IMG/VR virus record: IMGVR_UViG_3300025083_000270
Location: 1 to 21,014 of that record
Source: a virus
Strand: one strand, 5' to 3'
DNA length: 21,014 bases
In this document: positions 8,862 to 13,135 of the stretch, in pieces
Layout: each line of letters begins with the position of its first letter
Numbering within the stretch: the first letter of the stretch is position 1
Notes under the pieces: generated by a model
What the model saw: the letters and a program-made list of their open reading frames with translations, nothing else
Database searches by the model: none
Told to the model about the DNA's origin: nothing
Translations under genes and position numbers: made by a program

Positions 8862-9251
8862 ATGAAAATGCAAAAATATAGAGAACTAGTAGAAGACTTT
8901 TACGGTATAGATTTAGGTTTAAAATGTAGAAGAACAATTTATATAGAAGCAAGGGCTTTATACTATTATTTATGTAGAAATTTAGGGCGCTACAGCTTAA
9001 ATAAAATAGCGCAAAGTTTAAATAAAAACCACGCTACAGTAATGCACGCACTAGCCGAATTGCCATATATGCGTAAATTTAATAGTAAACTTGACGAAAA
9101 TTTTTACGAACTTTACGAAATAGCAGAAGCACTAGACAAGCAAAAAACAGAAGAATTAACACTAGAACAACTAGTACGAAAATATAATAAACTGCAAATA
9201 GACTACCAGGTAATAAAATACCGTCTATTAAAATATGAAAATGTAATATAA
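8862..9251 (+). CDS. Stand-alone DnaA domain IV-like DNA-binding protein
   Basis: This 129-residue protein contains RRTIYIEARALYYYLCRN (residues 23-40), then SLNKIAQSLNKNHATVMHAL (45-64). It follows the C-terminal domain of DnaA, where R-x-I-x-x-Y-L, an HTH and the signature D-H-S-T-V-x-H-A make contact with the DnaA box; here the signature reads N-H-A-T-V-M-H-A. There is no AAA+ ATPase part: only this domain plus a C-terminal coiled-coil-like tail (LTLEQLVRKYNKLQIDYQV). It could steer origin recognition or interfere with the host DnaA. ATG at 8868 is an alternative start two codons in. The stop overlaps the next start (TAATG, 9251). Confidence 0.75.
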   Translation: MKMQKYRELVEDFYGIDLGLKCRRTIYIEARALYYYLCRNLGRYSLNKIAQSLNKNHATVMHALAELPYMRKFNSKLDENFYELYEIAEALDKQKTEELTLEQLVRKYNKLQIDYQVIKYRLLKYENVI

Positions 9252-9941: not shown

Positions 9942-9963
9942 AAACAGCTAACAAATGAAAATA

Positions 9964-9999
9964 AACAGAATAATAAATGAAATTTAACAGAATAATAAA
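9964..9999 (+). repeat. Duplicated start region before the initiator gene
   Basis: AACAGAATAATAAA occurs at 9964-9977 and again at 9986-9999, 22 bases apart, each within an ATGAAA-like context. The first copy gives a ten-residue frame (MKINRIINEI, 9955-9987), the second the true start of the initiator (MKFNRII...). The two frames overlap out of phase. Confidence 0.65.
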
Positions 10000-10846
10000 A
10001 CCGTCGAAATTCGACCAGTTTACTATAGTGCCTAGTGCTATATTTAGGCAGCAAGGTATAAGCCAGCAAGCCACAGGGTTATATTGTTATTTATTTAGCC
10101 ATAGTAGTAACCATAAAATAACTATAAATTTTATTACAAACCACTTTAAAAACGGTAGGGACGCTATACGCAGCGCTTTAGCTGAACTTGAACAGCTGGG
10201 CTATTTACACCGCGAACAGGAACGTAAAGACGGTAAAATAGTAGGTTATAACTATATACTAAAAGACGCACCAGCGCCTGAAAAACCGTCGCCTGAAAAA
10301 CCGTCGCCTGAAAATCCGATACAAAGTAATAATAGTATATATACTATTAAGAATAATAGTACATATACAAAAAGAAATAATAGTACGAAGTCTGAAAATG
10401 TCGAAAAAGCATACCCACACTTCGCACAACTTTTTCCTGAAAGGTATAGACCTAAAACGCCAGCCACTATAGAAAAATGGAAAATTTGCCTAGACAGAAT
10501 AGAACGTATAGACGGCTACGACCTACGCCAAGTTTACGAAGTTTGTAAACAGCTACGCCAGGACCAATTCTGGTCTGAAAACTTTTTAAGCGTTTTAAAG
10601 CTACGTAATAGCGATAAAAACGGTGTACGGTATATAGACAGGTTTATGGAACGAAACGCGCTTAGAAAGCGTCCTATAGCTTTAAACAAGCTAAAAGGTG
10701 TTAAAGAATTAGTACCGTATTTAGAAGACGGCGTTAAAATGGTTAAAGCTATTACTAATAACGGCGTAATACAGGACTTTAATTTACGAATGAATTTAAC
10801 ACCAGCTGAATATAAAGAAATATTAGAATATGCAAATAGTAAATAG
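9977..10846 (+). CDS. Winged-helix replication initiator (lambda O-like organisation)
   Basis: This 289-residue protein has an N-terminal winged helix (residues about 8-80: FTIVPSAIFRQQGISQQATGLYCYLFSH, then GRDAIRSALAELEQLGYLHRE and KIVGYNYIL), the form found in phage replication initiators and DnaD-like proteins. A low-complexity linker follows (EKPSPEKPSPENP, then three NNS repeats, about 96-135), and then a helical C-terminal domain (TPATIEKWKICLDRIERI..., WSENFLSVLKLRN). The winged helix would bind origin DNA and the C-terminal domain would recruit the helicase encoded at 11450. The linker-coding DNA itself contains regularly spaced repeats and a palindrome, as the origin does inside the lambda O gene. 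The assignment is by domain pattern and context. Confidence 0.75.
   Translation: MKFNRIIKPSKFDQFTIVPSAIFRQQGISQQATGLYCYLFSHSSNHKITINFITNHFKNGRDAIRSALAELEQLGYLHREQERKDGKIVGYNYILKDAPAPEKPSPEKPSPENPIQSNNSIYTIKNNSTYTKRNNSTKSENVEKAYPHFAQLFPERYRPKTPATIEKWKICLDRIERIDGYDLRQVYEVCKQLRQDQFWSENFLSVLKLRNSDKNGVRYIDRFMERNALRKRPIALNKLKGVKELVPYLEDGVKMVKAITNNGVIQDFNLRMNLTPAEYKEILEYANSK
10276..10318 (+). repeat. 15-bp tandem repeats in the initiator gene
   Basis: GCCTGAAAAACCGTC occurs at 10276-10290 and 10291-10305, with a partial third copy GCCTGAAAATCCG at 10306-10318. They encode the PEKPS repeats of the linker and lie directly before the iterons. Confidence 0.9.
10328..10399 (+). other. Candidate replication origin: three 24-bp-spaced iterons and a 20-bp palindrome
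   Basis: AATAATAGTA occurs exactly three times, at 10328, 10352 and 10376, each 24 bases apart. The first two copies also share the following YATATAC. Overlapping the first iteron is a perfect 20-bp palindrome, TAATAGTATATATACTATTA (10330-10349). The stretch is very AT-rich compared with the flanking code. Iterons inside an initiator gene, next to an AT-rich region, are the arrangement of the lambda origin. Because 24 is a multiple of three, the repeats also appear in the protein (NNSIYTIK, NNSTYTKR, NNSTKSEN). Confidence 0.6.
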
Positions 10847-11449: not shown

Positions 11450-13135
11450 ATGGAATACAAACAGAAACTACAGGACCTAGGTATAAACCTAACGGCTAAC
11501 AGCGGCGAAACCAAAACAATATGCCCAAAATGTAGCCACACCAGAAAAAACAAAAGCGATAAATGCCTAAGCGTAAATATAGACGAAGGTATATACAACT
11601 GCCATAACTGCGGCTGGTCTGGTAACGTAAAATTTACGCCTAAAAAGGAATATGTAAAGCCACCAAAAGTAAACGCTGAACTAAATAACCGTATTATAGA
11701 ATGGTTTGCTGGTAGGTCTATTACAGAACCTACACTAGTACATTGGAAAATAGGCGAAAGCCTAGAGTACATACCACAAGTACAGAAAAAGCGTCGTACG
11801 ATTAACTTTAATTATTTTAGAAACGGCGAACTAATAAACGTAAAATACAGGGACGCAGAAAAAAACTTTAAAATGGTTAGTGGCGCTGAACTTATTTTCT
11901 ATGGTATAGACAACCTAAAAGATAAAAAGCGCTGTTATATAGTAGAAGGCGAAATGGACGCGCTAAGCTTACACGAAGCTGGACTATATAGCGTTTGTAG
12001 TGTACCTAACGGCGCTAGTAAAGGAACGCAAAAGCTAGACTATTTAGACAACTGCTATAAGTACTTCGAAGACAAAGAAGAAATAATACTATGTACTGAT
12101 AACGACCAGCCTGGTCTACAGCTGCGTAACGAACTAGCTAGAAGGTTAGGCGCATACCGCTGTAAATACGTTGAGTTTGGCGACTACAAAGACGCTAACG
12201 AAGTTTTAATACAAAAAGGTGCAGAAACACTACGCCAGCTAATTAACGACGCTAAAAACTTCCCACTAGAAGGCGTACTAAATATAGGTAATATATGGAA
12301 TAACGTACTAAATTATAACGAAAATGGTATAAAGAACTATAGTATAAACCTAGGCGAAAGCGACACATATTTTAATATGGCTTTTGGCGAATGGACGGTA
12401 GTAACTGGTATACCTAATAGCGGTAAGTCTGACTTTATAGACCAGGTACTAGTAAACCTAACTACAAAGTATAACTTTCGCTGCGCTATGTTTAGCCCAG
12501 AAAGCTACCCATACGAAGGGCATATAAAACGCATAGCAGACAAGCTAAATAATAAAAGCTGTAATACAGACGACCTAAATAATACCAGGGACTTTATAGA
12601 AGAACATTTTTATTGGATAAAAATAGACCTAGAAAATTTAACTTTGAAAGGTATACTTGATGCTTTTAGACAGCTAGTGTTTCAAAAAGGCGTAAACGTG
12701 CTGGTAATAGACCCCTGGAATATGCTAGACCACAGTGCCCAGCGCGATTTTACCTACATAGGAAAACTATTAAGTGAAATAACGCAGTTTTGCCAGCAGA
12801 CCAATACGCACCTGTTTTTAGTAGCACACCCTAGAAAAATAGAAAGCGATAACGGCGTATTTAAAAAGCCTAATTTGTACGATATTAGCGGCAGCGCAGA
12901 CTTCTACAATAAGGCTTATAACGGTCTAGTGTGCTTTAGGTCTGTAGGGCAAAAGACAGAATACAAAAGCGACCTAGTAACTATATACGTAGAAAAAATA
13001 AAACGTAAAGAAAATGGGCAGCTGGGACAGTTTGACCTAGCGCCAGACTTCCATAACGGCGGCGTATATAAACCAATAGGCAAAGCCAGTAAAACTTTTG
13101 AAGTAATAAAAGACACTAACGTACCTTGGGACTAG
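11450..13135 (+). CDS. Bifunctional DNA primase-helicase (T7 gp4-like)
   Basis: This 561-residue protein combines a primase and a replicative helicase. The N-terminal zinc ribbon has CPKC (25-28) and CHNC (51-54). The TOPRIM domain shows YIVEGEMDAL (163-172) with Glu166 and LCTDNDQPG (214-222). The RecA-like helicase part has Walker A TGIPNSGKS (319-327), Walker B VLVIDPWN (417-424), and LVAHPRK (457-463) and SGSADFYNKA (480-489), which correspond to motifs H3 and H4 of DnaB-type helicases. It would unwind the fork and prime the lagging strand after loading by the initiator encoded upstream. The leader is A-rich and there is no separate polymerase gene in the window, so the host polymerase is probably used. 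Confidence 0.92.
   Translation: MEYKQKLQDLGINLTANSGETKTICPKCSHTRKNKSDKCLSVNIDEGIYNCHNCGWSGNVKFTPKKEYVKPPKVNAELNNRIIEWFAGRSITEPTLVHWKIGESLEYIPQVQKKRRTINFNYFRNGELINVKYRDAEKNFKMVSGAELIFYGIDNLKDKKRCYIVEGEMDALSLHEAGLYSVCSVPNGASKGTQKLDYLDNCYKYFEDKEEIILCTDNDQPGLQLRNELARRLGAYRCKYVEFGDYKDANEVLIQKGAETLRQLINDAKNFPLEGVLNIGNIWNNVLNYNENGIKNYSINLGESDTYFNMAFGEWTVVTGIPNSGKSDFIDQVLVNLTTKYNFRCAMFSPESYPYEGHIKRIADKLNNKSCNTDDLNNTRDFIEEHFYWIKIDLENLTLKGILDAFRQLVFQKGVNVLVIDPWNMLDHSAQRDFTYIGKLLSEITQFCQQTNTHLFLVAHPRKIESDNGVFKKPNLYDISGSADFYNKAYNGLVCFRSVGQKTEYKSDLVTIYVEKIKRKENGQLGQFDLAPDFHNGGVYKPIGKASKTFEVIKDTNVPWD

Follow-up and report, generated by a model that had tools for sequence, protein, structure and literature searches.

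A candidate replication origin of the TP901-1 kind within the linker codons of a marine phage initiator gene

Introduction

In the lactococcal phages TP901-1 and Tuc2009, the closest known counterparts of the system described here, the proteins ORF13 and Rep2009 bind direct repeats located in their own genes, and these regions act as origin, according to a paper on another lactococcal phage; for TP901-1, the origin formed by the repeats within the gene, to which Rep binds, has been determined experimentally (PMC8965321). A related placement has been described in lambda and Stx phages, in which iterons in the middle of the O gene take the form of imperfect inverted repeats with A-tracts, vary in copy number (4 or 6) and are followed by an AT-rich tract (PMC7466680). 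RepA_N replicons, which include the V. cholerae PLE and Gram-positive plasmids, also pair a DNA-binding initiator domain with semi-palindromic iterons, those of the PLE being ~30 bp long and intergenic (PMC8263062).

Here, we analyse a 21,014-base linear virus record (the window) from a marine phage, which contains portal and terminase-type genes along with a replication block. We conclude that positions 10277–10384, with constraint reaching to ~10444, are very probably the phage replication origin, placed inside its own initiator gene, in the codons for the linker. Comparison at the sequence level indicates an origin of the known TP901-1 kind, an assignment that is well supported, with a diverged iteron and an unusual covarying dyad.

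Results

The initiator protein has a predicted disordered linker

Two genes of the window are referred to throughout:

9977–10846, + strand: replication initiator gene, encoding 289 aa with a winged helix (HTH_36) at the N-terminus, a disordered linker and a DnaD-like part at the C-terminus
11450–13135, + strand: gene for a TOPRIM primase fused to a DnaB-type helicase

The initiator matched a single Pfam family, HTH_36 (E 2.5e-8), and several PHROGs families of the replication initiation protein or DnaD-like helicase loader type (best E 1.6e-18), together with PHROG profiles labelled 'replication initiation O-like', of which several were hit (E 4.5e-10 to 7e-3). Its AF2 model consists of two confident parts joined by residues 101–136, which have pLDDT below 50 and are encoded by nucleotides 10277–10384; in this model, the candidate origin DNA and the predicted disordered, low-complexity linker coincide. 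Foldseek searches with the model returned DnaB/DnaD primosome proteins as top PDB matches, which were weak, and no relative of solved structure was found by sequence search. The downstream gene matched Pfam Toprim_2 (E 6e-13) and, below the cut-off, DnaB_C (E 2e-4), as well as the PHROG DNA primase/helicase (E 2.8e-86), and its product is likely the enzyme recruited at the candidate origin.

The start of the initiator gene is accompanied by a near-tandem 22-bp duplication of itself (9949–9992, 86% identical), which leaves a mini-ORF, MKINRIINEI; a duplication of this kind is present in one relative (L001) and absent from several others. Further upstream, the product of 8862–9251 is a small protein carrying a helix-turn-helix like that of DnaA domain IV (Bac_DnaA_C, E 2e-10), possibly a host-DnaA mimic or a second origin factor. 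Despite the presence of this protein, no DnaA boxes (TTWTNCACA) were found within the window.

Repeats and a palindrome occupy the linker DNA

The linker DNA contains the following elements:

10277–10318, + strand: iteron array of two CCTGAAAAACCGTCG units and a partial unit, CCTGAAAATCCG, with a 15-bp period; candidate initiator-binding sites
10320–10384, + strand: AT-rich TAn tract, holding the AATAATAGTA copies at 10328, 10352 and 10376; candidate unwinding element
10330–10349, no strand assigned: perfect 20-bp palindrome, TAATAGTATATATACTATTA, particular to this contig

A reading of the DNA without database searches (the sequence-only reading) had singled out these elements, and each was recovered as described: the three AATAATAGTA copies are spaced by exactly 24 bp, the 15-bp repeats at 10276–10318 comprise three in-register copies (spacing 15 and 15), and 10320–10384, which encodes low-complexity linker, is 85% AT compared to 64% for the gene. 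With a fourth, minus-strand copy at 8961, AATAATAGTA has four matches in the window against 0.47 expected, a count never reached in shuffles, and the palindrome is the sole perfect one of at least 16 bp in the whole window. The named repeats and the palindrome are real and go beyond chance expectation.

The functions first proposed for two of these elements did not survive comparison with relatives. The exact triplet of AATAATAGTA, put forward as a 24-bp set of origin iterons, is changed in relatives, and AATAATAGTA is part of the TAn tract; it was rejected as the primary iteron. Similarly, the palindrome carries one mismatch in L001 and is broken in other relatives, and was rejected as a functional dyad. 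In contrast to the palindrome and the exact triplet, the 15-bp repeats and a covarying dyad (see below) are conserved in relatives, and the repeats at 10277–10318 take the place of AATAATAGTA as the putative key origin elements.

Synonymous change is suppressed across the candidate origin

Comparison with relatives defined two further features:

10277–10444, + strand: region of suppressed synonymous change, giving practical limits for the candidate origin
9997–10006, + strand: extra copy of AAAACCGTCG, in codons 7–10 of the initiator gene

Close relatives were drawn from 21 IMG/VR loci that encode initiator homologues, mostly at 79–89% protein identity and in one case at 44%. When 14 sequences were aligned by codon, synonymous diversity was 0.024 in 10277–10408 versus 0.169 elsewhere in the gene, a sevenfold drop, and in amino-acid-matched resampling the observed value was reached in 0 of 20,000 draws (P <=5e-5). 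Non-synonymous diversity was more than twice as high within the same interval as outside it (0.24 vs 0.10). A sliding window placed synonymous diversity at ~0.02–0.05 across 10277–10444, compared to ~0.1–0.29 over most other parts of the gene. The sequence-only reading had held that iteron bases conserved at synonymous positions would support an origin and that free synonymous change in relatives would speak against one; the former is strongly evident in these data, and the latter did not occur.

Codon usage showed the same pattern at individual sites. The CCG and TCG codons for Pro and Ser in the two full iteron units were invariant (17/17), although in the 21 other genes of the window Pro is encoded by CCG in 4% of cases and Ser by TCG in 2%. 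All seven Asn codons of the window's linker are AAT, though AAC is commoner window-wide. Frozen synonymous sites combined with varying residues, and the fixation of rare CCG and TCG codons, indicate selection on DNA. The rare CCG TCG pair is also invariant at the extra AAAACCGTCG copy, in all 16 sequences that span it; this copy is possibly an additional binding or autoregulatory half-site.

The repeats might alternatively be peptide repeats, in which a Pro/Asn-rich linker grew by slippage and its DNA has no function. Growth of this kind would suit a disordered, low-complexity linker in which the 15- and 24-bp periods equal 5 and 8 codons and repeat copy number differs between relatives by whole 15-bp units, and the Asn-rich TAn tract could partly reflect linker composition. 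It is at odds with synonymous sites that are frozen while residues vary, with the fixed rare codons and with linker Asn codons that are all AAT, and a further objection arises from more distant relatives.

One DNA core is translated in three reading frames

A profile scan added initiators of 45–49% identity, whose linkers contain AACCGANNTCGGAAAA-type repeats, mostly with the same terminal GAAAATCCGnnACAAAGTAATA as well. In these and in remote relatives, the iteron equivalents consist of CCGANNTCGG with an A-tract, are placed 15 or 16 bp apart and occur at the matching gene position. The window contains no exact CCGANNTCGG core; its CCTGAAAAACCGTCG units are positional equivalents of the CCGANNTCGG arrays, with a diverged core and imperfect units. 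DNA searches, which by design select for the motif, matched 61 viral contigs with a single CCGANNTCGG-type motif and 36 with the tandem motif, and 35 of these 36 tandems (the exception being L140) lie within initiator genes homologous to a family profile that itself includes some tandem-bearing proteins. A control pattern of equal composition and symmetry matched no viral contigs, and HTH_36 was detected at E <=0.01 in 28 of 42 tandem-bearing proteins.

Cores were found in reading frames 0, 1 and 2 in 69, 19 and 20 instances, respectively, with neighbouring cores spaced by 15 bp (28 times) or 16 bp (18 times), apart from three exceptions. Cores occur in more than one frame in 18 genes; in one of them (L153), three cores at 16-bp spacing each fall in a different frame. 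The encoded peptides vary (PMSE, NRCR, SEVG) and the DNA is kept; because cores are translated in three frames and 18 genes mix frames, the DNA and not the peptide is conserved. The synonymous dip recurs in a second clade as well (~0.06 vs ~0.3). The reading of a single DNA core in every frame, with as many as three frames used in one gene, and a 16-bp spacing that is not a codon multiple refute peptide repetition as the source of the iterons of the class, and we consider it extremely improbable as an account of the repeats.

In genome contigs, a protein scan detected no initiator relative, and the tandem pattern gave 15 matches, several of them in non-initiator genes, e.g. one for pyrroline-5-carboxylate reductase; these non-initiator matches are likely due to chance. 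Another candidate, AAACCGTCG on the minus strand of three relatives, was rejected, lying within an unrelated ~400-codon gene and outside any array. When the literature was searched with the iteron string, none of the matches listed was a paper on replication. In one relative (L018 in contig G003, 1174–2050), the initiator is split by an apparent one-base insertion in the linker DNA into separate N- and C-terminal open frames; this is due to faulty assembly or else represents a natural initiator in two parts that flank the origin.

Annotated phages connect the window to the TP901-1 origin

The circularity of profile and motif searches is avoided in phages chosen by protein similarity, and we examined 10 annotated phage initiators selected in this way. 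The strongest short period was 15 or 16 bp in nine of them, within or adjoining the linker. The tenth, a DnaD-like initiator from Cellulophaga phage phi18:3 (L179, 421–1281), has 11-bp linker repeats, AAAGGGCAAGC, which necessarily fall in several frames since 11 bp is not a codon multiple; these probably mark a further origin located within a gene and built on a different iteron. In Arthrobacter phage BeatusComedenti (L175, 665–1609), CCGTCGCCTGAAAATCCG is identical over 18 bases to the window repeats and occupies the same gene position, at ~31% protein identity.

The nine include TP901-1 Rep, a remote homologue that was found from a relative (L095) at 34.5% identity and is matched with E 5e-17 by a profile built from the clades of the window itself. 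Its gene contains CCAGATGTGG cores with a spacing of 15 bp, and the 15-bp repeats, with their CC-n6-GG core, are followed by a TACTAAT-rich tract, a layout that matches the window. The TP901-1-type features present in the window are a homologous winged-helix initiator, 15/16-bp linker repeats and DNA-level constraint.

Repeats within the gene of a DNA-binding protein could in principle serve autoregulation, and the extra AAAACCGTCG copy at the gene start would fit an operator through which the initiator binds its own gene to limit expression, with the origin located elsewhere. In iteron replicons, origin binding and autoregulation often coexist. An operator function in place of an origin is nevertheless very unlikely: the array is placed ~300 bp into the gene, with an AT-rich tract after it class-wide, and the intragenic repeats of the homologue TP901-1 are an origin (PMC8965321).

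GC skew, which the sequence-only reading had also named as a criterion, had no minimum at the site in the contigs of two relatives (G001 and G002, from L002 and L013), where it is without power because almost every gene has the same orientation and skew at third positions is uniform. These contigs carry direct terminal repeats of 127 and 141 bp and are probably complete genomes, of ~28 kb for this phage group.

A strand-specific TAn tract follows the iterons

In 37 non-redundant genes, TACTAA, ACTAAT and AGTAAT are enriched 28–36-fold in the 80 bp past the last iteron compared to the remainder of the gene, and the complements of TACTAA and ACTAAT are absent from the same 80-bp stretches. The TAn tract resembles the DnaA-trio of bacterial oriC, in which strand-specific TA(A/G)-type trinucleotides lie beside the last initiator site (PMC10797057); unlike DnaA, the window initiator has no Pfam match to an AAA+ domain. 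We treat a DnaA-trio-like role of the tract as a lead rather than a result, since a linker rich in Asn would produce a bias on this strand too.

A covarying dyad overlies the tract in the window's clade

The conserved dyad has two arms, separated by a 4-nt loop (10350–10353):

10335–10349, + strand: dyad left arm
10354–10368, + strand: dyad right arm

The dyad overlaps the 20-bp palindrome, has 15-bp arms with one mismatch, and is the window's sole hairpin of such size. Among five distinct sequences, the arms show four compensatory pair changes, no one-sided changes and one constant A.C mismatch. In the window's clade, the inner stem of type A linkers reads ACTATTA, AGTAATA, AGTTATA or AGAAATA, and the other arm matches exactly each time; the changes are all non-synonymous, and each alters two amino acids. 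A comparable hairpin is missing from type B linkers (L011, L012 and L015, and the recombinant-looking L014 and L018), and the class therefore does not depend on the dyad.

Two explanations other than selection on origin DNA bear on the dyad only. A hairpin in the mRNA, affecting translation or stability of the transcript, would be consistent with the compensatory changes and with a stable RNA fold of the + strand (z -5.3); however, the constant mismatch, A.C in the mRNA, becomes a G.T wobble when the opposite strand is folded, and that strand gives the better fold (z -8.2); no Rfam family matched, and type B relatives do without such a hairpin. We regard this function as unlikely. Template switching at quasi-palindromes is a known mutational process. 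It could copy changes between the arms and produce covariation with no selection, and it is a serious rival because only five distinct dyad sequences exist in our set, in an AT-rich, close-spaced dyad confined to one clade. Against this stand the perfect pairing of the inner stem in all four variants, the outer mismatch left unrepaired throughout, and the retention of each change although it alters two amino acids. We judge template switching to be a plausible source of the covariation, though short of a probable one.

Discussion

The proposal of an origin inside the initiator gene is supported by synonymous constraint, by the iterons of relatives and by homology to TP901-1, with AATAATAGTA and the 20-bp palindrome falling away as its key elements. 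As in TP901-1 and Tuc2009, the window encodes a homologous winged-helix initiator with direct repeats in its own linker codons. Unlike those phages, its CCTGAAAAACCGTCG units have a diverged core, its clade adds the covarying dyad, and a fused primase-helicase gene lies downstream.

We propose that the winged-helix domain would bind the 15-bp iterons, that the iteron-bound assembly would open the adjoining AT-rich TAn tract, and that the DnaD-like C-terminal part would bring in the primase-helicase encoded at 11450–13135. In lambda, helicase loading depends on a separate P protein. Origin DNA could be parked in the linker because a disordered linker tolerates any peptide that the DNA happens to spell.

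The parallel with lambdoid phages drawn in the sequence-only reading is borne out, as the window has the same order of iterons in mid-initiator followed by an AT-rich tract (PMC7466680); the likeness is one of layout, and lambda/Stx iterons are ~19 bp long compared to 15-bp units in the window. The window also resembles RepA_N replicons in combining a DNA-binding initiator domain with iterons, but its 15-bp units are intragenic, unlike the PLE origin (PMC8263062), and Pfam detected no RepA_N domain in its initiator.

More speculatively, a single origin design may be shared by winged-helix/DnaD-like phage initiators in hosts of several phyla, a generalisation that we hold as doubtful: short palindromic 15/16-bp iterons would lead into a strand-specific TAn loading tract, accommodated in any frame by a disordered linker, with a selected hairpin or dyad overlaid in the window's clade. 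If this is true, the dyad overlay would constitute an extra initiation step, for example one in which the primase-helicase or the initiator recognizes folded single strands, and such a step is not described for the TP901-1 type. The dyad provides natural variants with compensatory changes, which could be used to test folded or dyad DNA in initiation. The frame switching of one DNA repeat cleanly demonstrates selection on a coding stretch at the DNA level, and 15/16-bp repeats conserved at synonymous sites in the linkers of HTH_36 initiators offer a way to find phage origins from sequence alone.
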